From: Rhodanobacter sp. AS-Z3
Lineage (GTDB): Bacteria; Pseudomonadota; Gammaproteobacteria; Xanthomonadales; Rhodanobacteraceae
Direction of reading: 5' to 3'
NCBI RefSeq assembly: GCF_029224025.1
Contig: NZ_CP119392.1
Span: 295,501 to 359,500 of the forward strand
DNA: 64,000 nt
This document shows, one piece after another, positions 14,072 through 52,881 of the stretch. The translations under genes and the position numbers were made by a program. Each line of letters begins with the position of its first letter. Positions within the stretch are counted from its first letter, which is position 1. The notes under the pieces were generated by a model. It was not told where the DNA came from. It saw nothing but the letters and a program-made list of their open reading frames with translations, and made no database searches.

Positions 14072-15349
14072 TTACAAACGGCCATCCACCGCATCGCGCG
14101 GTAGCACGTATTTCACGTCATACAAGACGCTTTGCGGCTTGCCGAAAGCTCGGATGCCGGCACTGCCCAACTTGGCGAACTGTTGGTGACCCACCGCCAC
14201 GATCACCGCGTCATACGTCGCCAGTGCCGGCTCATCGATGAGCTTGATGTCGTATTCGTGCGCGGCAGCCACGGGATCAACCCAGGGATCGAAGATCTCC
14301 ACTTCGGCGTTGTAGCCGTGCAGCGCCTGCACGATATCGACCACGCGAGTGTTGCGCAGATCCGGGCAATTTTCCTTGAATGCCAGGCCAAGCATCAGGA
14401 TGCGCGCGCGCACCGGATTGATGCCCTTGCACACCATCAACCGGATCACCTCGCCAGCGATGTACTCACCCATGCTGTCGTTGGTGCGCCGGCCCGCAAG
14501 GATCACGTCCGGGTGGTGACCCACTTCCTGCGCCTTGTGGGTCAGGTAGTACGGGTCCACGCTGATGCAATGGCCGCCGACCAGGCCGGGCCGGAACGGC
14601 AGAAAATTCCATTTGGTACCGGCCGCCTCCAGCACCTCCAGGGTGTCGATGCCAAGCTTGTTGAACAGCTTGGCCAGATCGTTCACCAGGGCGATGTTCA
14701 GATCGCGCTGGGTGTTTTCGATCACCTTGGCCGCTTCGGCCACTTTCAACGAGCTGGCCTTGTGCGTGCCGGCGGTAATGATCGAGCCGTACAGGGCGTC
14801 CACGAAGTCGGCTACCTCGGGGGTCGAGCCCGAAGTCACCTTGAGGATCGAGGTGACCCGGTGCAACTTGTCACCCGGATTGATTCGCTCGGGACTGTAG
14901 CCAGCGAAAAAGTCGCGGTTGTAGACCAGGCCAGAGACCCGCTCAAGAATCGGAACACAGACTTCCTCGGTGCAACCCGGGTAAACGGTGGATTCGTATA
15001 CCACGATGTCGCCCTGCTTGAGCACCTTGCCCAGCGCTTCGCTGGCCTTGATCAGCGGGGTGAGATCCGGTCGCTTTGCGGTGTCGATCGGGGTTGGCAC
15101 GGTGACGATGTAAACATGGCAGTCGCGGATATCGTCCAGCGCAGCGCTGAAGCTCAACCGCGACGCTTCGGCCAGTTCATGCGCATCGACTTCCAGCGTG
15201 TGGTCGACCCCACCGCGCAATTCCTCGACCCGTGCGGCGTTGATATCAAAGCCCACGGTGTCATAACGCTTGCCGAATTCCACTGCCAGCGGCAGTCCGA
15301 CGTAACCCAGCCCTACAACGGCGATCGTGGTGTTTTCAAGTGATTGCAT
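14072..15349 (-). CDS. tviB: UDP-N-acetylhexosamine 6-dehydrogenase (TviB/WbpO family)
   Basis: A 425-residue nucleotide-sugar dehydrogenase that oxidises C6 of UDP-GlcNAc/GalNAc to the uronic acid with two NAD+. The NAD loop GLGYVGLPLA is at residues 13-22, and the catalytic Cys261 is in GLVGGHCISVDPYYLT. The C-terminal domain (LMLGLAFKENCPDLRNT) matches the family. The sequence resembles TviB/WbpO more than UDP-glucose dehydrogenase. Such a uronate would be a natural acceptor for the amidotransferase-like proteins of the exopolysaccharide region. Start ATG at 15349. It is about 175 bases after prsT. Confidence 0.9.
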   Translation of the reverse strand: MQSLENTTIAVVGLGYVGLPLAVEFGKRYDTVGFDINAARVEELRGGVDHTLEVDAHELAEASRLSFSAALDDIRDCHVYIVTVPTPIDTAKRPDLTPLIKASEALGKVLKQGDIVVYESTVYPGCTEEVCVPILERVSGLVYNRDFFAGYSPERINPGDKLHRVTSILKVTSGSTPEVADFVDALYGSIITAGTHKASSLKVAEAAKVIENTQRDLNIALVNDLAKLFNKLGIDTLEVLEAAGTKWNFLPFRPGLVGGHCISVDPYYLTHKAQEVGHHPDVILAGRRTNDSMGEYIAGEVIRLMVCKGINPVRARILMLGLAFKENCPDLRNTRVVDIVQALHGYNAEVEIFDPWVDPVAAAHEYDIKLIDEPALATYDAVIVAVGHQQFAKLGSAGIRAFGKPQSVLYDVKYVLPRDAVDGRL

Positions 15350-28200: not shown

Positions 28201-28228
28201 AAAGTGCGCCCTTTCGAGGGCGCACTTT
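28201..28228 (+). terminator. Hairpin after the first secreted paralogue
   Basis: A perfect 12-bp stem, AAAGTGCGCCCT and AGGGCGCACTTT, closes on a TTCG tetraloop. It lies about 130 bases past the stop codon and is followed by GCGTTTGCC. The stem could work in either direction. Confidence 0.75.
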
Positions 28229-28646: not shown

Positions 28647-30860
28647 ATGGATACGATGAACAGAAAGGCATTCATTACCGGCGCTTGCGGCGCGTTGCTT
28701 CTGGCTGCGGCGCAGGCCTGCTCAACGACAGTCGTGACGAACAACGTGGTGAGTCAGACATCGCAAGCACAAAGCAATGTCTCGGTCACCTTCGGCCAGG
28801 TGTTCAGGGCTGGTGACGTGCCACGGGGCATGACTCTAGCCGCCACCGTCAATGGCCAAGCGGTGGCATTGCAAGTGGATGCCAAAGCGAAGAATCCTGA
28901 TGGAAGTTTGCGTCACGCGGTACTGACGGCGAGGGTTCCATCACTAACAGGCAAAGCCAGATTGCCTTTGACGCTTTCCGCCCAGGCCGCACCGGCAGTG
29001 ACTGAACATGCTGAGCCGGTCGCCTTGGCGCAACTGCTCGCAACAAGTTACAACGCCAAGGTTGCCTTCAACATCGGTGGCACAAGCTACACATCGGACG
29101 CACGCTCTCTACTGCAGACAGCCAGCAAGACACATCCGTGCAAACCGTGGAACAACCAGTGCAACCTGTGGCTTTCCGGGCCTCTGGCCAGCGAGTGGGT
29201 GGTGAACGGCGTAGCGACTGGCGCTGACGGAGCGCCCAACCCGGCCCTGCGGGTCTACTTCGCGATACGTGCCTATGCGGGTACCACGCCAGGCACCGTG
29301 GGCAATGTGCGCACGGACATCATTGTCGAGAACACGTCGGCGTTTGCGCCCCAAGCGCAACCGCAGTACACCGCCACATTGACCTCGGGAAGTGCGAACT
29401 ACACCAGCCCGGCGCTCACGCAATACGCCTACACGCGCTGGCACAAGCAGCTGTGGTGGAACAACGAGCAGCCACAGGTCTATCTGCAGCAGGACACGCA
29501 GTACATCCAGGCGAGCAAGGCCGTATCCCGCTACATGTCACTGACGCCCGATGAAAAGTTTCTCGCGACATTGCGGCAAACCTGCGCACCGCTAGACCAC
29601 TGCGACCAGACCAAAGCCATGGCCAACACCGGCGCACAGGCTTCGATCGGTCCGTTGCCGCGCTGGACCAGCGTCTACATCGTCTATCCTGACACTCGCG
29701 CCTACCACTGGATGCTGGCCAATACGGATGCACTGGGCAGCTACAGCAGTCACTACCGCGACGAGAAAACGGGGTGGCCGGTCAGCATTCAGAAGCATCC
29801 GTATGTCACCGTGATGAATTGGTCTGGAGCCCATCAGATCGCGGGACAAAGTGGGCCAGAGAGTGCGGCGTACAAGGCGGATACCTTGCAGAACTGCGTC
29901 AACAACGCCGTGGTCAGCAAATGCTCCACCGCGTGGTATGGCACAGGAAATCCCAATGTATGGGACGACGCACACCAACCATCGGGTGCGTATGTGCCCT
30001 ACATGGTGACCGGTGACTATTACTACATGTCGGAGCTTGCCTTCGACGCGTCATACAACGCGCTCTGGTCCAATGAGGCGTATCGAGGCTTTTCGAAGGG
30101 CTTGATCGATGGCGCACACGGCCAAGTCCGCGGGAAAGCCTGGGTGCTGCGGGAAATAGCTGATGCAGCCTATCTGCTTCCAGACAGCCATCCTTTGCAG
30201 CCGGAATTTGTGGCTGAGGTCGAGAACTCACTCGCCGACTGGAATACGAAATACACCGATAATCCGAACGCCAATCCACTAGGACTGATGAAAGGTGGCG
30301 CCGTGTATGGCGTGCACGGCGGCAGCAGCAACGGCATGGCGCCCTGGCAACACAACTTCCTCACCTGGTCGGTTGGGCATGCCGCTGAACTCGGCTTCAC
30401 CGGCGCGGAAACATTCCGCAACTGGTTAGCGCAGTTCGAGGTTGGGTTGATGACCGACTGGCAGCACACTAGCGGTGGCTACTGCTGGCTACAGGCATCC
30501 TCCTACAACATCCAGGTCAAAGACGCTGGAGGCAACTGGTTGCCGTCGTACAGCGCAGTTTATGCCGCATCCTTTCCAACGCTTTCCGGCCTCACCTGCA
30601 ACTCGCCACCCATGCTGGGAGAGCTTGAGAAGTTGCGGAAGAGGCCAGCAAAGTCCGGTGAAATGTCCGGCTATGCTTATTCCAACACGGGATTTCCGGC
30701 GAATTTCCAGATCGGCGTTGCCACCGCCGCCGATAGCGGGTTACCAAACGCACACGCGGCTTGGGCGCTGTTTGATTCCCGCAGCGTCAAGCCCTTGGGT
30801 AGTGATGCCTACAACAACTATCCCAACTTCGCGCTGCTCCCTCGCTCAGTGCAACCTTGA
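28647..30860 (+). CDS. Secreted paralogue without the Ig-like repeats
   Basis: A 737-residue exported protein strongly similar over its whole length to residues 40-745 of the preceding gene product (shared stretches include TVVTNNVVSQ, LWLSGPLASEWVVNG and TQYAYTRWHKQLWWN). It ends where the proline linker begins in its paralogue, so it lacks the two Ig-like repeats. ATG at 28647 (MDTMNRKAFITGACG) starts a signal peptide, with GGAG about 12 bases upstream. The cysteine after AAAQA does not form a proper lipobox. The tandem arrangement indicates a duplication, with DNA identity visibly high in blocks. Probable role as for the paralogue: acting on polysaccharide outside the cytoplasmic membrane. 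Confidence 0.75.
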   Translation: MDTMNRKAFITGACGALLLAAAQACSTTVVTNNVVSQTSQAQSNVSVTFGQVFRAGDVPRGMTLAATVNGQAVALQVDAKAKNPDGSLRHAVLTARVPSLTGKARLPLTLSAQAAPAVTEHAEPVALAQLLATSYNAKVAFNIGGTSYTSDARSLLQTASKTHPCKPWNNQCNLWLSGPLASEWVVNGVATGADGAPNPALRVYFAIRAYAGTTPGTVGNVRTDIIVENTSAFAPQAQPQYTATLTSGSANYTSPALTQYAYTRWHKQLWWNNEQPQVYLQQDTQYIQASKAVSRYMSLTPDEKFLATLRQTCAPLDHCDQTKAMANTGAQASIGPLPRWTSVYIVYPDTRAYHWMLANTDALGSYSSHYRDEKTGWPVSIQKHPYVTVMNWSGAHQIAGQSGPESAAYKADTLQNCVNNAVVSKCSTAWYGTGNPNVWDDAHQPSGAYVPYMVTGDYYYMSELAFDASYNALWSNEAYRGFSKGLIDGAHGQVRGKAWVLREIADAAYLLPDSHPLQPEFVAEVENSLADWNTKYTDNPNANPLGLMKGGAVYGVHGGSSNGMAPWQHNFLTWSVGHAAELGFTGAETFRNWLAQFEVGLMTDWQHTSGGYCWLQASSYNIQVKDAGGNWLPSYSAVYAASFPTLSGLTCNSPPMLGELEKLRKRPAKSGEMSGYAYSNTGFPANFQIGVATAADSGLPNAHAAWALFDSRSVKPLGSDAYNNYPNFALLPRSVQP

Positions 30861-31232: not shown

Positions 31233-32669
31233 ATGACTCTACGTAATGACGTCCTTCATTCGATGAAGTGGCTGGCCGGTGTACGCTTCGCCGGCCAGTT
31301 CATCGCATGGGCAATAACACTGGTCGTAATCCGCATCCTCAAGCCGTCCGACTATGGCTTGATGGCGATCGCCGAAGTATTGATCGGTTTTGCGGCGCTG
31401 TTCCAGGAACTGGGCCTGTATTCGGCCATGGTCCAGAAGCGCGACTTGACTGAACGTCAGGTCGAGCAGGCATTCGGGTTTCTGATCATCGCCAATACCG
31501 GCATCTACGTGCTGCTGTTTGCCATGGCCCCGCTGCTTGCGGCTTTCTTTGATGATCCACGCCTCACCAATATCGTGCGTGTGCTTGGCATCCAGTTTCC
31601 ACTGGCATCCATCGGTGTTGTGCAGGATGCCATGCTCAGTCGCAGCATGCGTTTCAAGCAGAAGTCGCTTGCCACCCTTGCCATCACTCTCGTCAACGGC
31701 ATCACAACGCTTGGTTTTGCACTGGCAGGCGCAGGGGTTTGGGCGCTCGTATATGGCAGCCTCGCAGGGTCTCTGATACGTCCCGTCGCGCTAAGCCTGG
31801 CAGCTCGACATTGGTGTCGACCGAGGTTTTCTCGTGCTGGCATGGCAGAAATGCTGAATTTCGGTGGCTTCATCACGGCCAGTGGTTTCATTTGGTATGT
31901 GTATTCGCAGTCGGACGTTTTCATCATTGGAAAAGTGTTGGGCAAGGAGATTCTTGGCTTCTACTCCATCGCCATGCAGTTGGCGTCGCTGCCCCTGCAA
32001 AAGATCGGGGAGACTCTCAATCAAGTCGGGCTTGCCGCGTATTCCTCCATCCAGCACGACATGGCCGCGATACGCTTTCATTACCTGAAGGTACTCAGGC
32101 TTCTCAATTTCTTTGGCTTTCCCATATTCTGGGGTCTTTCAAGCATTGCCCCGGAACTGGTTTCCGTCGTGTTGGGCGCGCGCTGGGAGCGCGCGGTGAT
32201 CCCCTTGCAGCTCTTGAGTCTGGTCATGCCGTTGCGACTCGCCGGTCACAGTGGCTCACCGTTGTCAGCTATCGGGAAGCCGCAAGTCGGTACGCTGAAC
32301 CACCTCATTGCCTTGATTCTGATGCCGCCGGCATTCTTAATCGGTGCCTATCTTGATGGCTTGGTCGGCGTCTCCATGGCGTGGGTAGTCATGTTCCCCA
32401 TTGTCACGTTGATCCGACTGCGTTTTTCGTTGCGTCCGTTAAGTTTGAACAACCGTGATTACTTCAAAACCATGGCAGCGCCGGCAGCCGCTAGTGCTGT
32501 CATGTACATCATGGTCATTCTCGCCCGCCACACGATTGTTGATCATCTAGCCAGCCCAGCCATAGGACTGGCGTTTCTGGTCGCGACCGGCGCGGTGGTC
32601 TACTGTGCATACATGTGGTTGTTCCACCGCAAAGACTGCCGCGAAATCATTGCGCTGACCAAAAGGTGA
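31233..32669 (+). CDS. Wzx-type polysaccharide flippase (MOP superfamily, WzxC-like)
   Basis: A 478-residue integral membrane protein with 12-14 hydrophobic segments. The N-terminus (WLAGVRFAGQFIAWAITLVV followed by RILKPSDYGLMAIAEV) and GLYSAMVQKRDLTERQVEQAF are typical of the WzxC/AmsL lipopolysaccharide biosynthesis family, which flips lipid-linked repeat units across the inner membrane. No flippase is present in the 18-gene locus at 37-60 kb, so this gene probably serves it. ATG at 31233 was chosen because the first membrane helix follows; the ribosome binding site is poor. The next reading frame starts six bases after its stop. Confidence 0.88.
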   Translation: MTLRNDVLHSMKWLAGVRFAGQFIAWAITLVVIRILKPSDYGLMAIAEVLIGFAALFQELGLYSAMVQKRDLTERQVEQAFGFLIIANTGIYVLLFAMAPLLAAFFDDPRLTNIVRVLGIQFPLASIGVVQDAMLSRSMRFKQKSLATLAITLVNGITTLGFALAGAGVWALVYGSLAGSLIRPVALSLAARHWCRPRFSRAGMAEMLNFGGFITASGFIWYVYSQSDVFIIGKVLGKEILGFYSIAMQLASLPLQKIGETLNQVGLAAYSSIQHDMAAIRFHYLKVLRLLNFFGFPIFWGLSSIAPELVSVVLGARWERAVIPLQLLSLVMPLRLAGHSGSPLSAIGKPQVGTLNHLIALILMPPAFLIGAYLDGLVGVSMAWVVMFPIVTLIRLRFSLRPLSLNNRDYFKTMAAPAAASAVMYIMVILARHTIVDHLASPAIGLAFLVATGAVVYCAYMWLFHRKDCREIIALTKR

Positions 32670-32674
32670 TCGTT

Positions 32675-32725
32675 ATGTATGCCTATAAGGCTGTGCGACC
32701 GTTTTACCGGACAGATATTCCGTGA
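32675..32725 (+). CDS. Short 16-codon ORF overlapping the next start (possible coupling leader)
   Basis: An ATG at 32675 with AGGTGA five bases upstream begins a 16-residue frame (MYAYKAVRPFYRTDIP) whose TGA (32723-32725) overlaps the GTG start (32722-32724) of the asparagine-synthetase-like gene. That gene has no good Shine-Dalgarno of its own. The arrangement suggests translational coupling. Alternatively it is the true N-terminus separated by a frameshift. Confidence 0.4.
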   Translation: MYAYKAVRPFYRTDIP

Positions 32726-34278
32726 CCGTCGAGCGAGCGTATCGCCACGATCCCGCTAACCCAACGTACATCCTTGTACAAAAGCGCGGTGAAGCGGTTG
32801 AAGTACGCGGCCAGGCGAGTGCGGAATTTGGTCACCAAATATCTTCAATGTCCCACTCGACGGCGGACGGAGTATTTGCGTGCTGGCACTGGGATGGAAC
32901 ACGACTTGTGGTCAACAACGACCGCTATGGCTTCTATCCCCTGTTTTGGTTCAGTCCTCCGGGCGGAGGAGTATGCGTATCACCTTCGCTCACTACCCTG
33001 ATCGAACAAGGCGCGCCTACCAACCTTGACGTCGAAGCGTTGGCTGTCTTCTTCAGGCTTGGCTGCTTCGTTGGCGAGGACACACCGTTTTCGGCGATCA
33101 AGACGGTGCCGCCGAATGCCCTGTTCGAGTGGACGAACGGAAGGCTGGAGTGCCGTGGCCAATACCCTTCAGTGATCCAAACGACAACGCTTTCGCGCGA
33201 CGATGCCATCGACCGGTATATCGAATTGTTCGCGCAATCCATGGCAAGGCGCGCGCCAGGTGCCGGCGCGTCGGTTGTTCCCATCAGTGGCGGCAGGGAC
33301 TCGCGCCACATACTGCTGGAACTGCACCGGAGTGGACTCGAACCGAGCCTGTGCGTATCAGCCCTGGACAATCCGCCTGATCCCAATGAAGACCCGAAGG
33401 TGGCCGCAGCCCTGTGCCGGGAGCTCGGTTTCAAGTACACCGTGGTCAACCAGCAACTGTCGCTGTTGTCAGCAGAGCTGCGCAAGAACAGTGAAACCCA
33501 CTTTTGCGCGGCAGCCCACGGCTGGTACCTCGCTCTTTCAGACGCTTTGAATGGACAGTTCGATTGCGCCTATGACGGCATCGCAGGCGACGTGCTTTCC
33601 CAGAGCAAATTCCTGAGACCGGACCTGGATGCGGTATTCCGCTCCGGGCGGGTCAAGCCTATTTGCGACATGTTGTTCGCACAGGGTGCTTCGAGCTTTG
33701 GAGGACTGCAGAGCCTGCTCAAGGGCGAGCTGAAGATGGCTGCCATGCATGAGGTCGCCACGAGGAGGCTTGCGGTGGAACTGGAAAGACATCTGGACTG
33801 CCCCAATCCCGTAGCGTCTTTCATCTTCTGGAACCGCACACGTCGAATGATCGCGCTTACTCCGTATAGCTTGCTTGCAGGAATACCCCGGGTCTATTCA
33901 CCCTTTCTGGATCACGACCTGTTCGACTTCCTCACAACGCTACCGACAGACATGCTGATGGGACACTCGTTCCACGATGACACGATTGCTCGCGCTTACC
34001 CCAAATTTGCGCATATTCCCTACGTCGACAAGGATGCGCCTGCCAGAGACGATAGCGGGGTTCGAGCACGCTTGTTGAACGAGTCCGCCCAACGATTCCT
34101 GCTGAAGAGGCCTTCACGACTGATGAAGAACCTTCGCCCGAGGGCAAAAATGCTGGCGGGCGTTCTATCCGGTGGTCGGATCAACCCGTGGATTTCACCG
34201 CTTGTCATCTATCTGGATCAGCTCGAATCCATGATCGACAAGCACCATAGCGGCTCTGGCCCAACAACCATTTCCTGA
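32722..34278 (+). CDS. Asparagine-synthetase-like protein without glutaminase Cys
   Basis: A 518-residue protein with a degenerate Ntn-type N-terminal domain (residues 1-150, with NNDRYGFYPLFW in place of the usual D..G..PLYY) and a C-terminal ATP-pyrophosphatase domain. The PP-loop is SGGRDS at residues 189-194, and YSPFLDHDLFDFLTTLP near 395 matches the asparagine-synthetase core. Position 2 is Thr, not the nucleophilic Cys, so it should not use glutamine directly. Homologues in sugar loci amidate uronic acids; others cyclise peptides. Start GTG at 32722 overlaps the stop of a short upstream ORF. A second such protein is encoded at 35467. Confidence 0.8.
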   Translation: MTVERAYRHDPANPTYILVQKRGEAVEVRGQASAEFGHQISSMSHSTADGVFACWHWDGTRLVVNNDRYGFYPLFWFSPPGGGVCVSPSLTTLIEQGAPTNLDVEALAVFFRLGCFVGEDTPFSAIKTVPPNALFEWTNGRLECRGQYPSVIQTTTLSRDDAIDRYIELFAQSMARRAPGAGASVVPISGGRDSRHILLELHRSGLEPSLCVSALDNPPDPNEDPKVAAALCRELGFKYTVVNQQLSLLSAELRKNSETHFCAAAHGWYLALSDALNGQFDCAYDGIAGDVLSQSKFLRPDLDAVFRSGRVKPICDMLFAQGASSFGGLQSLLKGELKMAAMHEVATRRLAVELERHLDCPNPVASFIFWNRTRRMIALTPYSLLAGIPRVYSPFLDHDLFDFLTTLPTDMLMGHSFHDDTIARAYPKFAHIPYVDKDAPARDDSGVRARLLNESAQRFLLKRPSRLMKNLRPRAKMLAGVLSGGRINPWISPLVIYLDQLESMIDKHHSGSGPTTIS

Positions 34279-34310
34279 TACATCGATAGCTCCGGCTCGG
34301 TAATAAAATT

Positions 34311-35000
34311 ATGACAACGCTTGCTGTGCAATTGGTGGTGCTCCTGCTCCTGTCAATACTCATCGGCATGTGGGCAACCCGCTTTCCCTACCCCGCCCCC
34401 TGGCTACGCCGTTTCCTGTCGCCAAAGCTGCGTTGGCCAGAGCGTCAGATCCGCGGATGGTTGCAAAACGGCCGCTTTCATCCGGGATTTCTTGGGTTCT
34501 TCAATCGGGACCCACATCGCGTGCCACCACCCGAGGCCGGTCTCGTTGCGCCAGCTGACGGCTTGATCACCAGTGCGGAGGTGCGAGATGGCGTCCGATA
34601 CCTGGTCATCGCGTTGACCTTCTGGGATATGCACGTGCAGCGCAGCCCTGCCGCGGGGAGGGTCGTTACGGTCGAGCCGAGCGGCGACCAGCTCATGGAT
34701 GGTGAGGGAAGGGATTTTTCCTTCCTGCGTGAAAAACACTGCCCGGTACAAACGCGCATCGTGATTGACACTGAGGAATTTGGACGTCTTGCCGTCCGAT
34801 TGATTACCAGCATTGCGGCCCGACGAATAGAAGTCTGGCCCGAGGAAGGCAGCATGATCGAACGTGGACAACGGCTTGGACGAATACTGCTCGGAAGCAC
34901 GGTGGTGCTGGAGATGCCGGAAGCGCTTCCGGTATGTGCTGTCGTTGGTCAGCGTGTGTGCGCGGGAGAAACCCTGGTGACTGCAGGAGCGACGCCATGA
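34311..35000 (+). CDS. Short phosphatidylserine-decarboxylase-like pyruvoyl enzyme
   Basis: A 229-residue protein with one N-terminal membrane helix (about residues 4-20) and the PSD core: FFNRDPHR at 63-70, PADG at 81-84, DMHVQRSP at 106-113 and LGST at 194-197. Asp83, His108 and Ser196 match the self-cleavage triad of E. coli PSD, so cleavage at Gly195-Ser196 to yield the pyruvoyl group is expected. It is the short form of the family, clearly smaller than the usual housekeeping enzyme (about 300 residues), and it sits between two asparagine-synthetase-like genes in a polysaccharide region. It may decarboxylate a seryl lipid or sugar conjugate; the substrate is unknown. Confidence 0.8.
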   Translation: MTTLAVQLVVLLLLSILIGMWATRFPYPAPWLRRFLSPKLRWPERQIRGWLQNGRFHPGFLGFFNRDPHRVPPPEAGLVAPADGLITSAEVRDGVRYLVIALTFWDMHVQRSPAAGRVVTVEPSGDQLMDGEGRDFSFLREKHCPVQTRIVIDTEEFGRLAVRLITSIAARRIEVWPEEGSMIERGQRLGRILLGSTVVLEMPEALPVCAVVGQRVCAGETLVTAGATP

Positions 35001-35191
35001 CCACTTTTTTCTGGTCTGCTGGACACTTTGGTTGGTTATTCTTCGGCATCGTCGTGTTTTCGATACTGTGCCTGCTTGCAGCCGATGTTGCGTGGCGACT
35101 GGTTTCCATGTCGTCCCGCAAGCTGCTTGCGATCACGGCGTTGGTATGGGCAGCTGGCGTTACCGCGTTGGTTCTGATCTTGAATGTCTGA
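34997..35191 (+). CDS. Small two-helix membrane protein coupled to the decarboxylase
   Basis: A 64-residue protein whose ATG overlaps the stop of the decarboxylase gene (ATGA), implying coupled translation. It has two hydrophobic segments, about residues 10-30 (GWLFFGIVVFSILCLLAADV) and 43-63 (LLAITALVWAAGVTALVLIL), separated by a short loop with a few basic residues. No family is recognised. The coupling suggests it is a partner or membrane anchor of the decarboxylase. Confidence 0.65.
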   Translation: MTTFFWSAGHFGWLFFGIVVFSILCLLAADVAWRLVSMSSRKLLAITALVWAAGVTALVLILNV

Positions 35192-35196
35192 TTACC

Positions 35197-35346
35197 ATGC
35201 CCCGCGTGCTTTGGCACATGACAGGGTATTACTTTCGAGCAATCCGCCAAGCTTCTGTATCCGTCAGCGGCAATCGAGCCTTCTCTATTCGCGGCTTCCT
35301 AGGGCAAAGCTTTCGAACTAAGGGTCGCGAAGGTTGCATGGATTGA
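35197..35346 (+). CDS. Possible 49-residue basic protein
   Basis: An ATG five bases after the preceding stop opens 49 codons (MPRVLWHMTGYYFRAIRQAS..., ending RTKGREGCMD). It is basic with no family resemblance and no evident Shine-Dalgarno, so it could be chance. It is listed because it continues the tight spacing of the block. Confidence 0.25.
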   Translation: MPRVLWHMTGYYFRAIRQASVSVSGNRAFSIRGFLGQSFRTKGREGCMD

Positions 35347-35466
35347 AGCGCAGAACTGATTGTAAAGTAGCTTTTTGTCGAAACGATTTAGCCCACTCCT
35401 TCGAGCACTAGTATCAGCGTCAGAGGAAGCCTCTTCCAGGCGACGCTCCTTACAAAAAGAGGTCGT

Positions 35467-37206
35467 ATGAACGTCGTTCCGGCTACCCACATAGCGAAGA
35501 AACTCGCCATTCACATCGGCGCTGGTTCTGCGCTTCAAGTCGGCACGATGCTGGCCCGGCAAAACTTGCGCAATCTGTCTGTCAGCCAGAGAGAGTTGCC
35601 TTCCGCCACAATCGGATGCTTGGGTGCTGCGCTGCCGCTGGAAGGAAACGTCTGCTTCTTCACTGGCTTGCCAATCCATGGCCCCGCGATTCGGGACATC
35701 GTCGACGCAGAAAGCGCGGCTCGCCTGTTCCCACAGTATGACGGCGCATTTACAGGTGTTTTCTGGGACGCTCAGCAGCAGGTTTTGGTCGTCGCCACCG
35801 ATTGCTTGGGCATGCAGCCACTCTACGTGCGTTATGCAGATGGTGAGTTAACGCTGACAACCGAGACCAAGGCGATAGCTGGTGACCCAGACTTGGCCGC
35901 GTGGGGCGCATTCATCTCGATGGGTCATCCAATCGGCGAGCGCACTCTTATGAGTGGCCTGCGACACGTCCCGCCAGCAAGCATCCTTACTTACGACTAC
36001 TCAACGCGTCGATTGGAAATTCGTCGTTATTGGCAGTGGCCGACCCCCTCCGATGCGTGGCGCAACTATGACTTCCTGGGGTCGCTAGAACAGGACATGC
36101 GCGCGTATGCCGCTTTCGGCAACTCAGGAACGGTCTTGCTCAGCGGCGGATTCGACTCGCGCCTGCTGTTGTTCCTGCTTCGGCGCGCAAACATTCCAGT
36201 GGATGCCTTGATCGTCGCCCACGAGGATGAGTACGCTGACGCCGACGGTCGGCTCGCCGAGGCAGTGGCGATGCTTGCCGGCGTTCCGTTTAGAAAAGCG
36301 CACCCGGCAGCAGATTTTTTTTCATCGCGTGCATATCTCGAACACTTGCAAGCCAGCGACGCCGGCTACCCCAGTATGGATTTGTTCATAGCAAAGGTCG
36401 CCCCGCAAATTGATGCGACAGCTGTCTGGGAGGGCCTGGTTCCTGCGTTCGCGTTCAACACCCCGCACCAGGAGGAAGGTGGCTTCGACAGCTATAAGTT
36501 ACGCGAAGTTCGGGACCCAACGAGTGCGGTCTGGCGCGCAGCGAAAACTCTGTTCAAGCCCGACGCAATAGAGGCGATGCTCGGGGGATTCTCGGACGAT
36601 CTGCACAATGAAATCTCGCGAGTACCGCAAGACATGGCGGGAGTGCTGCAGTTCATCGTTGAGCACCGCAGCCGCAACCGTACGGGTATGAATCCGATGA
36701 AGGTGTTTTCGAACAGGACAAAGGCCTTTACGCCGGGACTGTCGAAGGACCTGATGGCACATGCGGCGACAATTCCATTCAAAGAGCGGCAAAACGCCCA
36801 GTTTTACAAAGGGATGCTTGGAAGACTGGACAAACGCATGCTAGCAATTCCGTTCGTCAGTGGAGGGGAACTGGTGAAAGGCGTCAGGTTCAGCCCCTCG
36901 TATTATCGCGAGCGTGCCCGGGCAGAATATTTGGGTTACCGCGCACGCCACCCGCGTCTCTTCATTGGAAGTCGGGAGCGTCAGCCCGAGTACTCCGCAT
37001 TCCTCGGCGCAAATCTTTTTGAAGAAGATGACAAGTGGCTCAATCCAGGAGCACGAGAGCAGATGAAAACAGTAAGTGCAGACAACTACCTCGCATGGAA
37101 GCTGCTATTTCATTGGAAAACTTGGCAATGGGTCCACAAGGGAACATTGGTGCCTATGCTTGGAACTTACGCGAGTCGAGGAAGTAACCACGCCTTACCC
37201 GAATAG
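35467..37206 (+). CDS. Second asparagine-synthetase-like protein without glutaminase Cys
   Basis: A 579-residue protein. The N-terminal Ntn-like domain (about 40-190) retains YDGAFTGVFWD and DCLGMQPLYV but has no N-terminal Cys. The ATP-pyrophosphatase domain has the PP-loop SGGFDSR at 226-232. It is only distantly similar to the protein encoded at 32722, so a recent duplication is unlikely. ATG at 35467 has AGAGG five bases upstream. Composition is visibly less GC-rich than the flanking operon. A carboxylate-amidating or ligating role on a sugar, lipid or peptide is inferred from fold only. Confidence 0.78.
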   Translation: MNVVPATHIAKKLAIHIGAGSALQVGTMLARQNLRNLSVSQRELPSATIGCLGAALPLEGNVCFFTGLPIHGPAIRDIVDAESAARLFPQYDGAFTGVFWDAQQQVLVVATDCLGMQPLYVRYADGELTLTTETKAIAGDPDLAAWGAFISMGHPIGERTLMSGLRHVPPASILTYDYSTRRLEIRRYWQWPTPSDAWRNYDFLGSLEQDMRAYAAFGNSGTVLLSGGFDSRLLLFLLRRANIPVDALIVAHEDEYADADGRLAEAVAMLAGVPFRKAHPAADFFSSRAYLEHLQASDAGYPSMDLFIAKVAPQIDATAVWEGLVPAFAFNTPHQEEGGFDSYKLREVRDPTSAVWRAAKTLFKPDAIEAMLGGFSDDLHNEISRVPQDMAGVLQFIVEHRSRNRTGMNPMKVFSNRTKAFTPGLSKDLMAHAATIPFKERQNAQFYKGMLGRLDKRMLAIPFVSGGELVKGVRFSPSYYRERARAEYLGYRARHPRLFIGSRERQPEYSAFLGANLFEEDDKWLNPGAREQMKTVSADNYLAWKLLFHWKTWQWVHKGTLVPMLGTYASRGSNHALPE

Positions 37207-44940: not shown

Positions 44941-46890
44941 TCATGCCAATGATCCGGCCGGCGAGACCTTGCTCGGCGGCTGGGCTGGAGTCGCCACAGC
45001 GGGCTCCTGCATACGGCGCAGGAACGCATCAAGCATCAGCAGGCTCCACAGCGTCGCGCTGTGATCGCGCCGTCCTTCCGTGTGCTCCCGCACCAGCTTG
45101 CCCAGCATGTTCGGATCGAAATATCCGGACCTGGCCACGGCGCCATCGAGTAGCGCATCGCGAACACGCTTTGCCAGCGGTCCCCGCAGCCATGCCGCCA
45201 GCGGCACGCTGAAACCCATCTTGGTTCGATAGAGCACGTCATGCGGCAAATCGGCTTCAAGCGCCTTCTTGAAAATGTACTTGCCGATGCCGCCTTTGAG
45301 CTTCAACGCGGGCGGCAATGAGGAAGCCCATTCAACCATCCGATGATCGAGTAGCGGCACGCGCACTTCGAGGCTGTTCGCCATGCTCGCGCGATCGACC
45401 TTGGTCAGGATGTCACCAGGAAGCCAGGTCTTGAGGTCCAGGTATTGCGCCAGCGACAGCGGATGTTGAGTCGGCGCGTGCTGCGCATGGCCACGAAACA
45501 CCGAGAGTGCGTTGTAACCCTGAAGTTCGCTTTTGAAAGAATCGCTGTAGAGCTGCTGACGCATCGCTGTCGAGGTGATGCTGACACTGCGGAAATAGGC
45601 TTCCACATCGTCACAGGCCAGCGCCTGGAACGTGGTTTTGGCGCGCAGCGGACGCGGCGCCCAATCCGCCTTGGGATAGATCTTTCCCAATAGTCCGAAC
45701 AGCGGCTTTCGCACCGCCAGTGGCAGACGCGCGCGCAAGGCACTTTCCCACGCGTGCAGGCGATAGCGCCGGTAGCCGGCGAAATTCTCGTCACCGCCGT
45801 CACCGGAGAGCGCGACCGTGACGTGCTTGCGCGCCAGTTGGCAGACGCGCCACGTGGGCAGCGCAGAGCTGTCGGCGAACGGTTCGTCGTACATGCCGGC
45901 CAGCATGTCCAGAAAATCGTAATCCTCGGAACTGACGCGCTCTTCGAAGTGCCGCGTGTTCAGGTGCTTGGCGACCTGTCGCGCATAGGCGGTTTCATCA
46001 AACCCGGCATGGTCAAATCCGATGGAACAGGTATTGACCGGTTCGGCGGCTATCCGAGTCATGCTGGCAACGACAGCGCTGGAATCCACGCCACCGGAAA
46101 GAAATGCGCCGAGCGGCACGTCGGCGACCATCTGGCTGGATACGGCATCGTCCAGCAGCGCGCGCAGTTTTGCGGATGCCTCGGCTTCACCCATGCGCGG
46201 ATCGGTATTGAATGGGACGTCCCAATACTGATGGGTCAGCGGCACCGGTTCGCCCGCATGCCAGCTCAGCCAGTGTCCCGGCGGCAGCTTGAAGATGCCC
46301 TGATAGATGCACTTGGGATCGGGCACGTAGCCAAACGCCAGATAGTCTTCCAGCGCCTGCGGGTCGAGCTTGCGTTCAAGCTCGGGGTGCGCCAGCAAGC
46401 CCTTCAGTTCGGAAGCAAACACCAGGTCGCCGGCTTGGGTGAAGCCGTAATGGAGTGGCTTGATACCGATCTGATCGCGCGCCAGCAAGACCCGCTGGGT
46501 GCGCATGTTCCAGATGGCAAACGCAAACATGCCGACGAAGCGTGACAAGCACGCCTCCCCCCATTGTTGCCACGCGCGTAAAACAACTTCGGTATCGCCA
46601 TGACTGGCGAAGACGATACCCAGCGCTTCCAATTCCGCCCTGAGCGATACGAAGTTGTACAACTCGCCGTTGTAGATAAGCGCCAGACCGGCCTGCTCAT
46701 CCACCATCGGTTGCTGGCCGTGGGTCAGATCAATGATCGACAAGCGGCGATGCGCCAGCCCCACACCTTCGGCCAGATAGATGCCGGCTTCGTCGGGGCC
46801 GCGATGACGTTGCACGTCACGCATCGCCAGCAGCGTCTGCTCATCCGGATGGCCCTGGTGACCCAACACGATTCCTGCCAGACCGCACAT
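44941..46890 (-). CDS. Exosortase A system-associated amidotransferase (asparagine synthase family)
   Basis: A 649-residue class II amidotransferase. Unlike the two plus-strand homologues it keeps the nucleophile Cys2 (MCGLAGIV), the RHRGPDEAG motif near 30 and the PP-loop LSGGVDSSAV near 265. It should release ammonia from glutamine and amidate an activated carboxylate, probably a uronic acid of the exopolysaccharide. This is a standard member of XrtA loci. ATG at 46890 is one base from the stop of the glycosyltransferase gene before it. Confidence 0.94.
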   Translation of the reverse strand: MCGLAGIVLGHQGHPDEQTLLAMRDVQRHRGPDEAGIYLAEGVGLAHRRLSIIDLTHGQQPMVDEQAGLALIYNGELYNFVSLRAELEALGIVFASHGDTEVVLRAWQQWGEACLSRFVGMFAFAIWNMRTQRVLLARDQIGIKPLHYGFTQAGDLVFASELKGLLAHPELERKLDPQALEDYLAFGYVPDPKCIYQGIFKLPPGHWLSWHAGEPVPLTHQYWDVPFNTDPRMGEAEASAKLRALLDDAVSSQMVADVPLGAFLSGGVDSSAVVASMTRIAAEPVNTCSIGFDHAGFDETAYARQVAKHLNTRHFEERVSSEDYDFLDMLAGMYDEPFADSSALPTWRVCQLARKHVTVALSGDGGDENFAGYRRYRLHAWESALRARLPLAVRKPLFGLLGKIYPKADWAPRPLRAKTTFQALACDDVEAYFRSVSITSTAMRQQLYSDSFKSELQGYNALSVFRGHAQHAPTQHPLSLAQYLDLKTWLPGDILTKVDRASMANSLEVRVPLLDHRMVEWASSLPPALKLKGGIGKYIFKKALEADLPHDVLYRTKMGFSVPLAAWLRGPLAKRVRDALLDGAVARSGYFDPNMLGKLVREHTEGRRDHSATLWSLLMLDAFLRRMQEPAVATPAQPPSKVSPAGSLA

Positions 46891-46891
46891 C

Positions 46892-48082
46892 TCAACTCTC
46901 CTTGTGCTCAGCCAGCCCGGACACGATACGCGAAGCCGTCGTATGTGACCGACGACCGAGCAGGCCGTCGTACAACGCGACGTATGCGGCGACCATGGCG
47001 TTCAAACTGAATTTTTCGGCGACCCGAGCGATGCCCGCATCGCCATGCCGCCGACGCAAGGTGGCGTCTGCAACATAGGTGCTCATGGCCGCAGCCAAGG
47101 CGCGTGGATCGCTGGCCGGTACCAGCGTGCCGGTTACCTGGTCTTCAACCACCGAGGCAATGCCACCGACCTTGGTTGCAACTACCGGCAGCCCGGCTGC
47201 CATGGCTTCCATCAAGGTGACCGGCATGCCCTCGGCGATGGACGACAGCACAAACACATCAGATTCGGCCAGCAGTTCTGCCACGTCGTTGCGATTGCCG
47301 AGCAGGCGCACCGCATCCACCAAGCCCAGTTCAACAATTTGTCGTTCCAGGGCCTCGCGCTGTGGCCCCGCTCCGGCGATGATCAAGCGGCAGGAAGGAT
47401 AGCCGGCTTCTTCACGCAGATACTTGAACGCCGTGATCAAGCCGGCTTGATCTTTGACTTTGTCGAGCCGCGCAACATGTGCGATGAGCACGCTTTCCGG
47501 CGGCGCAAAGTCGCCCAGCAAACGACGTGGCGCAAACGCGACGCGCGGCTCATCGAACGCCATGGCGTCAATGCCGTTCGCGATATAGACAACCTTGGAT
47601 GGTCGAATCCGCGCATGATCGACAAGCCAGCTCTGCAGGTCGGCAGACACGGCAACGTAGCGATCAATCAACGGTGCCATCCAGCGACGCAGCCGCAGGT
47701 ACGTGGGATTTTCACCTTGCGGATCAGTCGCATCCCGTCCGTGTTCGGCGTGGACCAGGTGACGGACACCGGCGAGCTTCACGGCCAACGCCATATCCAG
47801 AGTGCCGATGTTATAGGTCTGCACCAGATCCGGTTTCAGCGCGCGCAGTGCGCGCCACAGTCGTCCATGGCAGGCCCAATCCTTGCCCGGCTTCTTTTCG
47901 AGCGACACGCACTCGGTAACCACGCCTTCGATTTCGTCGCGCAAAGCGCCAAAGCCGGTCAAGGCAATCACGGCGTGCCGATAGCGATCAGCAGTCGCAT
48001 TGATCAGCGAAACCACGATGCGCTCCATGCCACCGGTATCCAGCCGGTAGAGCACGTGCACGATCAAGGGCTTCTCTTTCAC
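46892..48082 (-). CDS. XrtA/PEP-CTERM system glycosyltransferase (stp2 family)
   Basis: A 396-residue GT4 enzyme. The start IVHVLYRLDTGGMERIVVSL (about residues 7-26) and HAEHGRDATDPQGENPTYL near 130 mark the PEP-CTERM-associated sugar transferase family often called stp2. The donor site is SIAEGMPVTLMEAMAAGLPVV near 300. The open frame reaches 48316, but GTG at 48082 overlaps the exosortase stop (GTGA) and fits the family length. Confidence 0.92.
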   Translation of the reverse strand: MKEKPLIVHVLYRLDTGGMERIVVSLINATADRYRHAVIALTGFGALRDEIEGVVTECVSLEKKPGKDWACHGRLWRALRALKPDLVQTYNIGTLDMALAVKLAGVRHLVHAEHGRDATDPQGENPTYLRLRRWMAPLIDRYVAVSADLQSWLVDHARIRPSKVVYIANGIDAMAFDEPRVAFAPRRLLGDFAPPESVLIAHVARLDKVKDQAGLITAFKYLREEAGYPSCRLIIAGAGPQREALERQIVELGLVDAVRLLGNRNDVAELLAESDVFVLSSIAEGMPVTLMEAMAAGLPVVATKVGGIASVVEDQVTGTLVPASDPRALAAAMSTYVADATLRRRHGDAGIARVAEKFSLNAMVAAYVALYDGLLGRRSHTTASRIVSGLAEHKES

Positions 48083-49653
48083 GGCTTGTTCTCGGCGGCG
48101 GCGGGTGCATGCGTGGTCTGCGGCTCGACCATGGTTTGCGCCGGAAGCGCTTGCGCAAAGGCACGCAGGTTCGCCTGCACTCGCTCGACACCGCCGGCGC
48201 CAACCGACGATGACAATGCCCACACCGAGGATTGCGGCACATCCCCTCGCAGCACGTCCCACGCTTGCAGCAACTTGGTGACCATCGGTGAGCGGGTGCA
48301 GCGCTGGTCCACGCAATACCAGAACCAGACGAGCCGCGAATCAGTCTCGCCACTCAGCCGCAATTCGCCGGCGGTCAGAGCTCGCCCATCGGCCAGAAGG
48401 ATCGGACGGCTGGCGCTACTGAGTATGTGCGCCCGCGTCGAGTCGAAGAGCTGGTTTTCGAAGGTGATCAAGGTGTGCCCGCGACGCGGCTTGCCGGTGT
48501 AGACGGCATGGAACAGCTCGACCACCTGATCTCCAGTGTTCGCGCGATAAGCTGCCTTTACCTGTCCGGCCGCCCCGCTGAAGTTCGGGTGCCAGTTGTC
48601 TGCTGCCGCTTGCGCCGCACTCCAGCCTGCAAGGTTCGGCGCGGTCACCTGCAGCTCGCCCACCGGCGTGGGCAACGAGACGCTGGCTGCCAATACCGGG
48701 CCAATGATCAACAGCACGATCACGGCCGGCCAAACCGTCATGCGCGGGCCGGTCGGCCTGCTGTCATTGGCAGAAGCTGGCTCACGCGCGTCCACGGGGT
48801 CGCGGAAAAACCAGCCGACCAGCAACAACAACACCAGCACCGTGCCGAAGAACTGCCAGCCGAAAATCAGGTGGTCCAGCCCGGTCGCGTAATGCAGGCC
48901 CCAGGTGTCGCCGATCAAGATGGTGAAATACACGCGCAGGCCGTTTGCAATGATTGGCACGATGGCGGCCAGCAGCACAAACACCACGCGCTTTCGCCAG
49001 CGCTGGTACATCAAGTAGGCATACAGACAACCGAGTGCGCCGCAGGCGATGAAGAATTTCACGCCGCTGCAAGCATCCGCCACCATCCAGGTTGCCGCCG
49101 GCGTGGTGATCTCCCTGCCGTTGAGCAGCGCCGGCGTGCCGGTCAAGCCCAGCGCGTGCACCGCGAAATGCGCGGTGATGTCCTGCAAGGGACCCACCAG
49201 TCCATCACCCCACGGCACCGCGAAAACCACCAGATAGGCGAGCGGGAAGGCCAACACCCACAGCGCTCGCCAACCCCAGCACCCCAGTACCAGCGCGGGA
49301 ATCAACGCCACTATCGCCACATGCTGCAAAAGATTGACGTCAAGCAGATGGCCGGCGTACCAGACAAACACCAGACCCGCTACCGCAAGCAAACCCCATG
49401 CACTGGGCATGGGTGGATGGGCGCGCACTTTGCCGCGCAGATCGAACGCTACCCACAGGCTCAAGGGCGGAATCAGGAACGCGTACTGGTAGGTGCCGTC
49501 GTGATCCCAGACTGACACCAGCGAGACCACCGCCTGCCAGTAGCAGAACAGCAAGACGGCAACCGCAAGGCCGAACGCGACGGTGGCCAGGGTCCAGCCG
49601 GAAATGCCCGTGGTACGGGCGGCATTGTCGGGCGGCACGTGATTCACGGGCAT
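48079..49653 (-). CDS. xrtA: Exosortase A fused to EpsI-type domain
   Basis: A 524-residue membrane transpeptidase that cleaves PEP-CTERM signals. The first 290 residues have about eight hydrophobic segments and the exosortase triad: Cys195 in DACSGVKF, Arg240 in NGLRVYF, and a His in DHLIFGW (His261; His254 is nearby). Residues 310-500 form an EpsI-like periplasmic domain (GWSAAQAA, then VVELFHAVYTGKPRRGHTLITFENQLF), as usual for the XrtA type. It acts on the protein encoded at 23276-24091 and likely others in the genome. It overlaps both neighbours, upstream by 10 bases. Confidence 0.95.
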   Translation of the reverse strand: MPVNHVPPDNAARTTGISGWTLATVAFGLAVAVLLFCYWQAVVSLVSVWDHDGTYQYAFLIPPLSLWVAFDLRGKVRAHPPMPSAWGLLAVAGLVFVWYAGHLLDVNLLQHVAIVALIPALVLGCWGWRALWVLAFPLAYLVVFAVPWGDGLVGPLQDITAHFAVHALGLTGTPALLNGREITTPAATWMVADACSGVKFFIACGALGCLYAYLMYQRWRKRVVFVLLAAIVPIIANGLRVYFTILIGDTWGLHYATGLDHLIFGWQFFGTVLVLLLLVGWFFRDPVDAREPASANDSRPTGPRMTVWPAVIVLLIIGPVLAASVSLPTPVGELQVTAPNLAGWSAAQAAADNWHPNFSGAAGQVKAAYRANTGDQVVELFHAVYTGKPRRGHTLITFENQLFDSTRAHILSSASRPILLADGRALTAGELRLSGETDSRLVWFWYCVDQRCTRSPMVTKLLQAWDVLRGDVPQSSVWALSSSVGAGGVERVQANLRAFAQALPAQTMVEPQTTHAPAAAENKP

Positions 49654-50894: not shown

Positions 50895-51956
50895 CTACAC
50901 CAGATCCCGCGCGAGCCAGGGGCCCACCGCGCAACTGACCGGCAACGGCAGACGCTGCCAGGCCTTGATGAACAGGCTGTACTTGCGGTTCGTGGGACTG
51001 AGATTGGGCACTTCGCTGGCGCCCACCAGATGGTAGGCATAGGGCAACGGCTGCGGCTCGAAGCCCCAATGCTTCTTGAAGTTATACGAACCGGTACCCT
51101 GCTTGCTGCGGCCGAAGTCGAACACCCGCGCGCCGCGATCCACCGCGCGCTGCATCACCGACCAGTACATGAAATCGTTCGCCGCCAGATCACGGCCGCG
51201 CGCCACGCTGCCGCCGTAATAGGGATGCACTTCGTCGCGGTAGTACAGACTCATCACCGCGGCCACTGGCTGTCCCTGATGAGTGACGACGGTAATTTCG
51301 CAATCGTCGCCGAAGACTTCTTTCAGGCGCAGGTAGTACTTGCGCGACAACACGGGCGTACCCAGATTACGCACGCTTTCGGCGTAGACCCGATAGAACT
51401 CGGCAACCGTAGCGTCGTGCCTAGCCTCAAGGCCCAGCGTAATGCCCTTGCGCACCATCGCGCGCTGCTTGCGCGGGATCGCCTTCATGTTCGTTTCGTG
51501 GTCCGGATCAATCGTCTTGCGGAAGCTGACGTACAACTCTTTGACCGGCCAGTCCGCGTGGCGCAACTCACGATCACGCAATTCGAGATAGTCCACGCGC
51601 AGTTCATCGGCCAGCGCAGTGGCGGCGCGCGTAAGTTGCGCTTCACTCTCCGCGTCATCCGCCACGATGCCGCCGTACACGCAGAGCGGCGTGGAAATCA
51701 ACGAGTGACCGAACAGCCGACTGCGTATTTCCGCCAGCGGCAGTACGCCGGTGATTACGCCGTCGCGCTCCGCGTACAGGTAGTGGCAGCGGTGCCCTAG
51801 CTGCTGCTCGATGATGTTGCGCCAGGCCGCACGATGGAAAAACGTGGCCTGCGGCGCGTTCTGCGCGAATGCATCCCAGCGTGTTTCTTCACCGATACCC
51901 AGACGCTTGATGGCGCAAGTGTCGGCAGAACGACTGTCGTCCGCTTGATCCAGCAT
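50895..51956 (-). CDS. FemAB-like protein, XrtA/PEP-CTERM-associated
   Basis: A 353-residue protein of the GNAT/FemAB superfamily, a standard member of XrtA loci. Seen are WDAFAQNAPQATFFHRAAWR near residue 26, PYYGGSVARGRDLAANDFMYW near 250, and DFGRSKQGTGSYNFKKHWGF near 285, the conserved signature of the family. FemAB relatives transfer aminoacyl groups, so it may decorate the polymer, but no substrate is proven. The frame opens 22 codons earlier; ATG at 51956 has AAGGA nine bases upstream and follows the deacetylase stop by 13 bases. Confidence 0.92.
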   Translation of the reverse strand: MLDQADDSRSADTCAIKRLGIGEETRWDAFAQNAPQATFFHRAAWRNIIEQQLGHRCHYLYAERDGVITGVLPLAEIRSRLFGHSLISTPLCVYGGIVADDAESEAQLTRAATALADELRVDYLELRDRELRHADWPVKELYVSFRKTIDPDHETNMKAIPRKQRAMVRKGITLGLEARHDATVAEFYRVYAESVRNLGTPVLSRKYYLRLKEVFGDDCEITVVTHQGQPVAAVMSLYYRDEVHPYYGGSVARGRDLAANDFMYWSVMQRAVDRGARVFDFGRSKQGTGSYNFKKHWGFEPQPLPYAYHLVGASEVPNLSPTNRKYSLFIKAWQRLPLPVSCAVGPWLARDLV

Positions 51957-51969
51957 GTCCTTTGATCCT

Positions 51970-52881
51970 TCAGTCGGCGCCGCGTTCGGTGGCCTGCAAC
52001 GCCACCGAGGGATAGTCGGCATGCCCTTCGGCGAGAAATATCCGGTCCATGCGATCGAACCGGAAGTCGTGCATCAATTGTTCGAGTCGGGGCACCGTGC
52101 GCGTCAAATTCAGATAGTGCCGCACGCGGTTTTTCAGCGTGACGCCCGGAACGCGCGGCTGCTGCGGATCGACTTCCCACGGATGGAAATAGAACACACC
52201 CGAAGCTTGTTCCTGCTCGTTCACGTGACGCAGGCCGCGCTTGAACAACGCGTAGGGCAGCAGGCGAAAATACCCGCCGCCACCGCAAGGCCAGTTGCGT
52301 CGCCAGCGCTGCGCGGTGGTTACCGGAATCTCCAGCAGCCCCGAAGGCTCGGCGAAAAAGGCGAATCGCGGCGCCTCTGGCATGCCGTACAAGTCGTGAT
52401 GCAGCGGCACGATGCTGGAACTGTAGCGATAACCGGCTTCGCGCAATTCCTGGTGGGCCCAGAGGGTTCCGGGGCCGACGGAGTAACTCGGCGCGCGGTA
52501 ACCAACCACCGCAGCACCGGTCAGGTCTTCCAGCAAATGCTTCGTACGTACAATTCCGTCGCGAAACTGGTCGGGCGTCAGCGTGGTCAGTCGCTCGTGA
52601 CCGAAGCCGTGGCTTGCCACTTCATGGCCGGCTGCGTTGATGTCACGCATCAAGGCCGGGAAGCGCTCGGCCACCCAGCCAAGGATGAAGAAGGTCGCGT
52701 GTACCTGATGACGCGCGAACAAATCCAGTACGCGCCGGGTATTGTCTTCAACGCGCACCGGCCATTGCGGCCAATCCTCGCGCGCAATGCATTTTTCGAA
52801 AGCGGAGACCTGGAAGTAGTCCTCGACGTCCACCGTCATGGCGTTGATGATCGGCTCGGCTAGCGGCGACAGCGAGCTCAT
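51970..52881 (-). CDS. Polysaccharide deacetylase, XrtA-associated
   Basis: A 303-residue NodB-type deacetylase with the DUF3473-type C-terminus of XrtA loci. The catalytic/metal motifs are TVDVEDYFQ (residues 16-24), SHGFGHERLT near 90 and the RAPSYSVGP stretch near 128; YFHPWEVDPQQPR near 230 is the later His motif. No signal peptide, so it may act at the cytoplasmic side on lipid-linked sugars. ATG at 52881 overlaps the ATPase stop (ATGA). Confidence 0.93.
   Translation of the reverse strand: MSSLSPLAEPIINAMTVDVEDYFQVSAFEKCIAREDWPQWPVRVEDNTRRVLDLFARHQVHATFFILGWVAERFPALMRDINAAGHEVASHGFGHERLTTLTPDQFRDGIVRTKHLLEDLTGAAVVGYRAPSYSVGPGTLWAHQELREAGYRYSSSIVPLHHDLYGMPEAPRFAFFAEPSGLLEIPVTTAQRWRRNWPCGGGGYFRLLPYALFKRGLRHVNEQEQASGVFYFHPWEVDPQQPRVPGVTLKNRVRHYLNLTRTVPRLEQLMHDFRFDRMDRIFLAEGHADYPSVALQATERGAD

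Follow-up and report, generated by a model that had tools for sequence, protein, structure and literature searches.

A short phosphatidylserine-decarboxylase-like gene, its small membrane partner and exchangeable AsnB-like genes at an exosortase A locus of Rhodanobacter

The locus considered here lies in a 64,000-nucleotide stretch of Rhodanobacter sp. AS-Z3 (NZ_CP119392.1, positions 295,501 to 359,500; hereafter the window), and it raises the question of whether five plus-strand genes at 31233..37206, which combine two asparagine-synthetase-like enzymes with a short phosphatidylserine decarboxylase (PSD)-like protein, act in one pathway or in more than one. The window is an XrtA/PEP-CTERM exopolysaccharide locus, as NCBIfam models place exosortase A (XrtA) above its cut-off together with an exopolysaccharide gene set, and the block stands between PcRGLX-like genes and the XrtA core. 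Its first gene encodes a Wzx/MOP-type flippase (31233..32669; PF13440, 276 bits), whose reading frame is also open from an upstream ATG at 31137. After 52 bases comes AsnB1 (32722..34278, GTG start; motifs SGGRDS, YDGIAGD and PFLDH), after a further 32 bases the 229-residue PSD-like protein with an N-terminal hydrophobic stretch that we call PSDs (34311..35000), and, overlapping it by 4 bases, the 64-residue membrane protein smTM (34997..35191); AsnB2 (35467..37206; motif SGGFDS) begins 275 bases after smTM. Given the short spacing and the overlap, the flippase, AsnB1, PSDs and smTM genes look co-transcribed.

An earlier note had given this gene order, which we confirmed for all five open reading frames (ORFs), and had proposed that an AsnB-like enzyme and the decarboxylase act in turn on the same serine. 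Our analysis gave a different answer: the five genes are two adjacent modules at the far end of the XrtA locus, and not one unit. PSDs and smTM probably serve XrtA, and for the AsnB-like enzymes a role in the variable exopolysaccharide is probable, an assignment that we make because in the mapped loci of the family the PSDs-smTM pair is constant while the flippase and AsnB-like genes are swapped around it. The best explanation of these data, which we hold at somewhat less than even confidence, is that PSDs would supply the lipid acceptor of XrtA and that the flippase, AsnB1 and AsnB2 would form a swappable polymer cassette.

The evidence that carries the first part of this explanation is the distribution of PSDs, which we followed in a genus sample of 45 genomes, a family sample of 233, a class-wide sample of 274 and a phylum sample of 349. 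XrtA itself is encoded in the window at 48079..49653 on the minus strand (TIGR03109, 285.1 bits, cut-off 208), and in the family counts XrtA was scored over this curated cut-off and PSDs at E <= 1e-30. By these measures PSDs occurs in 15 family genomes and XrtA in 20, and all 15 PSDs genomes lie within the XrtA set, PSDs being found in none of the 213 family genomes without XrtA over the cut-off (Fisher 1e-19, a value which, like the other PSDs co-occurrence values given here, is uncorrected for shared ancestry or linkage). Two further family genomes have weak XrtA matches below the cut-off and no PSDs. At the level of the genus, PSDs is present in 12 genomes and XrtA in 13, with XrtA in all 12 of the former. 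For each of the 20 family genomes with XrtA over the cut-off we mapped the XrtA locus, using the window for its own genome and fetched stretches for the other 19; a distance of 14-30 kb on a single contig separates PSDs from xrtA in 14 of the 15 PSDs genomes, and in G338 the two are on different contigs. Seventeen GTDB records, from Rhodanobacter, Oleiagrimonas, Salinisphaera, Acidihalobacter, Thiohalobacter, Lysobacteraceae and Gammaproteobacteria, contain PSDs, and XrtA is present in 16 of them; nine of the 17 are, by their coordinates, family genomes already counted, and XrtA is found in seven of the eight that lie beyond the family set, including Salinisphaera, Acidihalobacter and Thiohalobacter.

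PSDs reaches 84.8 bits with PF02666 against a gathering cut-off of 22, and thus belongs to the PSD family in Pfam terms. The residues that the earlier note had singled out, Asp83, His108 and the LGST motif (L194-G195-S196-T197), are invariant in 20 aligned PSDs rows (this count, like those of 19 AsnB1 and 20 AsnB2 rows below, includes the window's own sequence), and Asp83, His108 and G195-S196-T197 align with the canonical PSD of the same genome; the Asp, the His and the G-S-T cleavage site have catalytic roles in known phosphatidylserine decarboxylases. It was reasonable to ask whether PSDs is simply the ordinary PSD of the organism, and this we rejected, as the genome has a second, canonical PSD of 293 residues at C1:2035299, which gives only 16 bits with the PSDs profile. 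The clade is well separated: 28 locus ORFs, several genomes being represented twice, score at least 312 bits with that profile, and the next PSD 67 bits. Five of the 349 genomes in the phylum sample match PSDs at 1e-30, namely the window's genome and four (L125-L128) of one other family, whose short PSD proteins reach about 108-111 bits, and in stretches of 9-20 kb around those four no protein of the window's XrtA locus was matched, apart from one weak TPR match. When the PSDs profile was run against solved structures, a single chance match was the only result.

The small protein encoded next to PSDs has no Pfam or NCBIfam match, and it accompanies PSDs in all 15 family PSDs genomes. In 13 of the 15 the PSDs stop codon and the smTM start codon share the 4-base overlap ATGA; the junction differs in G002 and was missed by the junction script in G313. 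Twenty distinct aligned smTM sequences share the pattern GHxxWxxF...DxxWR...WxxG. A further protein of 275 residues without Pfam or NCBIfam match (L022:9132-9956) was also observed near the pair; members of its cluster (c13) stand directly 5' of PSDs in loci L010, L022 and L024 and downstream of PSDs in L020 and L021.

We propose that PSDs would act as a dedicated pyruvoyl decarboxylase that converts a seryl phospholipid to an ethanolamine phospholipid at the inner membrane, with smTM as its putative membrane partner, and that the amine of this lipid would resolve the XrtA acyl-enzyme, leaving the cleaved PEP-CTERM proteins lipid-linked. That PSDs might make an ethanolamine lipid acceptor for XrtA is suggested by the precedents of ArtA with PssA and PssD, of rhombosortase and of the type IX secretion system (T9SS), to which we return below.

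Several observations weigh against this proposal. XrtA is present in 51 of the 274 genomes of the class-wide sample, and the PSDs clade in only two, the window's genome and G190, so that 49 of the 51 XrtA genomes are without it; this rarity argues that XrtA generally works without PSDs and that housekeeping phosphatidylethanolamine may suffice, in which case PSDs would be a solution peculiar to certain lineages, or would add to that pool. Within the family, five of the 20 XrtA genomes appear to lack PSDs; the xrtA contig stops before or near the expected place in each, and the remaining contigs of the five assemblies yielded no PSDs either. The co-occurrence of PSDs with XrtA is expected from their linkage in one locus, and a shared reaction does not follow from it. 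One Salinisphaera metagenome-assembled genome (L010) has PSDs and smTM, and XrtA was not found in that genome. In the Acidihalobacter and Thiohalobacter loci no smTM was detected 3' of PSDs. Finally, PSDs falls under the curated cut-off of all 11 NCBIfam PSD models that it matches, the best score being 108 bits against 183.

The class-wide numbers led us to reject PSDs as a universal XrtA component (two PSDs-clade genomes against 51 XrtA genomes among 274). Looser counts in the same sample were given no weight, since the pairs were on different contigs or far apart where they were compared, and since ancestry was uncorrected: any match to the PSDs profile at E <= 1e-3 gave 55 genomes, of which 19 are shared with the 51 XrtA genomes (Fisher 0.001), and exosortase matches taken at 1e-30 gave 80 genomes, 28 of them joint (Fisher 1e-4).

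The same rarity would also be expected if the PSDs-smTM pair were a passenger, a paralogue with the usual PSD activity that does nothing particular for the locus: PSDs is missing from most XrtA genomes in the class sample, and transfer of the locus as a whole would carry the pair along. Given, however, that the clade stands well apart from other PSDs (at least 312 bits against at most about 111), that its active-site residues are invariant, that it has an overlapping partner gene and that it is present in 15 of the 20 family XrtA genomes, we consider a passenger improbable.

It was not unreasonable, on the other hand, to consider that the pair serves the exopolysaccharide and not the sortase, whether through a local pool of phosphatidylethanolamine that acts as donor of phosphoethanolamine to the polymer or through an ethanolamine lipid that takes part in assembling or exporting the polymer. 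PSDs does stand among polysaccharide genes, often beside PcRGLX-like genes and Prs regulators, and the XrtA-less Salinisphaera genome keeps it beside an amidotransferase and a glycosyltransferase. Against this, the pair persists where the polymer cassette is exchanged, and the NCBIfam matches include no phosphoethanolamine transferase, part of the window's ORFs having been scanned and the genome not having been searched. We regard this alternative as rather unlikely.

The two AsnB-like proteins present a different picture. Both have the ATP-pyrophosphatase loop (SGGRDS in AsnB1, SGGFDS in AsnB2), and an N-terminal Cys of the MCG type is absent from all 19 AsnB1 and all 20 AsnB2 rows, which bears out the earlier note on both points. 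The Pfam cut-off of 25 for GATase_7 is passed by an AsnB2 fragment (31.9 bits), AsnB1 staying below it at 22.5, and with TIGR01536, the glutamine-hydrolysing asparagine synthase model, AsnB1 and AsnB2 reach 36.8 and 43.1 bits against a cut-off of 267. A comparison with lasso-peptide cyclases had also been suggested; the lasso-peptide or macrolactam cyclase models gave at most 26 bits for NF033535 (cut-off 525) and at most 35 for NF033561 (cut-off 300). AlphaFold models of AsnB1 (pLDDT, the predicted local distance difference test score, 85.4) and AsnB2 (pLDDT 88.1) match AsnB, TsnB9, beta-lactam synthetase and carbapenam synthetase over almost their full length, with the Ntn and ATP-pyrophosphatase domains of the AsnB/beta-lactam synthetase fold superfamily; in the AsnB2 model the alignment to Cys1 Ntn glutaminases starts with Lys11 on chain residue 1. 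Given these fold matches and the missing N-terminal Cys, AsnB1 and AsnB2 look like glutaminase-dead members of this fold, the fold lists being compatible with other families as well.

These genes are the part of the block that varies. AsnB1 occurs in 2 of the 233 family genomes, and AsnB2 in the same two with two partial or weaker matches besides; the complete cassette of AsnB1, AsnB2 and a flippase of the window's type is likewise confined to 2 of the 233, the window's genome and Oleiagrimonas sp. C23AA (G474). The window's flippase has a 68% identical relative in C23AA (locus L023), and the other 13 PSDs genomes have a different flippase. The gene order in C23AA is flippase, a PGA-cap gene, AsnB1, AsnB2, a VanZ-like gene on the other strand, PSDs and smTM. 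In 11 of the 15 PSDs loci a third Cys-less AsnB-like family, c16 (SGGFDS, about 580 residues; for example L018:7900-9630), lies between the XrtA core and PSDs; it is below all NCBIfam cut-offs, an MCG-type start is absent from all 11, and C23AA has it in addition to AsnB1 and AsnB2. The earlier view that such an arrangement falls outside the usual make-up of XrtA loci is half right: it holds for the rare AsnB1/AsnB2 pair, and in this family it fails for PSDs and smTM, which recur in 15 of the 20 XrtA genomes. In G334 we also observed an AsnB-type ORF (G334:C60:68693; SGGLDS, 628 residues, 33% identical to the XrtA amidotransferase) on a contig that ends near the expected place of PSDs.

We looked beyond these genomes with a protein-cluster comparison, in which equal "longest contig" values were taken, indirectly, as the same contig, and which covered 72 of the 120 listed PSDs clusters (P0002-P0073; 38 of the 72 on contigs of at least 5 kb) against 90 AsnB1 and 97 AsnB2 values. 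For twelve of the 72 the longest-contig value recurs exactly among the AsnB1 or AsnB2 clusters, in one case for a contig shorter than 5 kb, and 17 values are common to AsnB1 and AsnB2 clusters; because of these shared values the block probably exists in more than the two genomes.

The proposal of a joint pathway, in which one serine is handled first by an AsnB-like enzyme and then by PSDs so that a carbohydrate or lipid ends up with an ethanolamine-type group, can be judged against these distributions. In its favour, the AsnB-like and PSDs genes are adjacent in the window, 12 of the 15 family genomes with PSDs also have a Cys-less AsnB-like gene, and the 12 clusters just described suggest that PSDs and AsnB1 or AsnB2 share a contig elsewhere. 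The fetched loci of G319 and G024, however, contain PSDs and smTM and no Cys-less AsnB-like gene (c16 having been searched at the loci and not genome-wide), and in G338, where the locus is split, the presence of an AsnB-like gene is undecided. Nor is the partner conserved: AsnB1 and AsnB2 are 23.6% identical over 407 columns, and the third family gives short, weak matches to either. The chemistry is awkward as well, as pyruvoyl decarboxylases require both the amine and the carboxylate of serine to be free, and in an amide-bound serine one of the two would be blocked. We therefore set the joint pathway aside on the strength of the G319 and G024 loci and of the AsnB1/AsnB2 pair being found in 2 of 233 genomes, and consider it very improbable; of the co-occurrence that the earlier note had wished to see checked, the association of PSDs with some Cys-less AsnB-like gene stood, and that with AsnB1 and a full-length AsnB2 did not.

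The reverse order is chemically allowed, with PSDs acting first and an AsnB-like enzyme then joining the ethanolamine amine to a uronic-acid carboxylate of the polymer to give an ethanolamide or a lipid link. The ATP-pyrophosphatase loop is intact, and a TviB-like UDP-N-acetylglucosamine C-6 dehydrogenase (14072..15349, minus strand; NF011729, 630 bits, cut-off 592) is a possible source of the carboxylate. There is, against this, no one-to-one pairing of PSDs with an AsnB-like gene, and we think this order most unlikely too. We favour instead the reading of the flippase, AsnB1 and AsnB2 as an exchangeable exopolysaccharide cassette separate from the PSDs-smTM pair, in which AsnB1 and AsnB2 would form an amide on the repeat unit before its export, probably on a uronic-acid carboxylate; this is the likeliest substrate because the TviB-like gene is present in the locus and because of the precedent of WbpS in Porphyromonas gingivalis, which converts a uronic acid to a uronamide (PMC7468200).

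The remainder of the window is consistent with its assignment as an exopolysaccharide locus. NCBIfam matches on the minus strand include glycosyltransferases stp1-3, a polysaccharide deacetylase, chain-length and export proteins, EpsB2, an O-ligase-like protein (TIGR03097) and a FemAB-type XrtA-associated protein (50895..52022; TIGR03019, 478 bits). Further to the left, in the company of the TviB-like gene, are PrsT, a PEP-CTERM response regulator, PrsK and WecB. Two PcRGLX-like proteins (exo-rhamnogalacturonan-lyase N-domain) at 25166-30860 on the plus strand score just below the Pfam cut-off, and relatives of them lie near PSDs in many mapped loci. At the edge of the window, an HsdR-like match (62368-63987, minus strand; 63.6 bits) is below its cut-off.

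In the titles and abstracts surveyed from the exosortase, PEP-CTERM and amide-linked polysaccharide literature we found no description of the PSDs-smTM pair, and the text of the 2006 PEP-CTERM paper (PMC1569441) contains neither "decarboxylase" nor "asparagine synth". As the flippase and AsnB-like genes change around a pair that stays, possible sortase genes can be told apart from possible polymer genes, and smTM is a small partner protein to test.

Known systems resemble one or the other module in part. A relative of AsnB1 and AsnB2 within the locus is the XrtA/PEP-CTERM amidotransferase (44941..46890, minus strand; TIGR03108, 976.4 bits, cut-off 816.9), an ordinary AsnB relative of XrtA loci with an N-terminal MCG; it is the one true member of that family here and belongs to the same superfamily, whereas AsnB1 and AsnB2 reach 27 and 43 bits against the cut-off of 817. 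Beta-lactam synthetase, carbapenam synthetase and the TsnB9 hydroxyamidotransferase share 11-18% identity with AsnB1 and AsnB2, and ring closure is unsupported.

The T9SS Wbp/Vim linking-sugar pathway shares several features with the present locus (PMC7468200). WbpS is of the AsnB type, VimA is related to the XrtA-associated FemAB family TIGR03019, and the sugar that links the cargo bears serine or glycine, so that the acceptor carries an amino acid; its authors themselves draw attention to XrtA loci, and term the exosortase acceptor an "unidentified compound" (PMC7468200). Unlike WbpS, the uronamide maker, AsnB1 and AsnB2 are without the glutaminase Cys, and the same passages do not mention a PSD (PMC7468200).

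The chemistry proposed here for XrtA is like that of the Vibrio rhombosortase/GlyGly-CTERM system, in which processing leaves a C-terminal moiety containing glycerophosphoethanolamine on VesB (PMC6219818). That enzyme, in contrast to an exosortase, is a protease of the rhomboid type, and no PSD is mentioned in the portions of that paper drawn on here (PMC6219818). A further parallel is the ArtA-PssA-PssD system of Haloferax and Methanosarcina, where a PSD-family enzyme goes with an archaeosortase/exosortase-type sortase; in the parts of the paper used here, ArtA-dependent processing in Haloferax needs PssA and PssD, with archaetidylethanolamine as the proposed acceptor (PMC7157517). The present locus differs in its bacterial XrtA and in the partner smTM, and PSDs scores 81 bits against the cut-off of 240 of the archaeal sorting-system decarboxylase model NF038088. 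That this is an exosortase locus with its own lipid-acceptor pathway, that PSDs and smTM, through a special ethanolamine lipid with which XrtA would anchor PEP-CTERM proteins, are the bacterial counterpart of ArtA/PssD and that the identity of the acceptor can be read from the pair is a possibility that we put forward tentatively, and clearly below even; PSDs, confined in the family sample to genomes with XrtA, would nonetheless point to a concrete candidate chemistry that can be tested and that agrees with the archaeal and rhombosortase examples.

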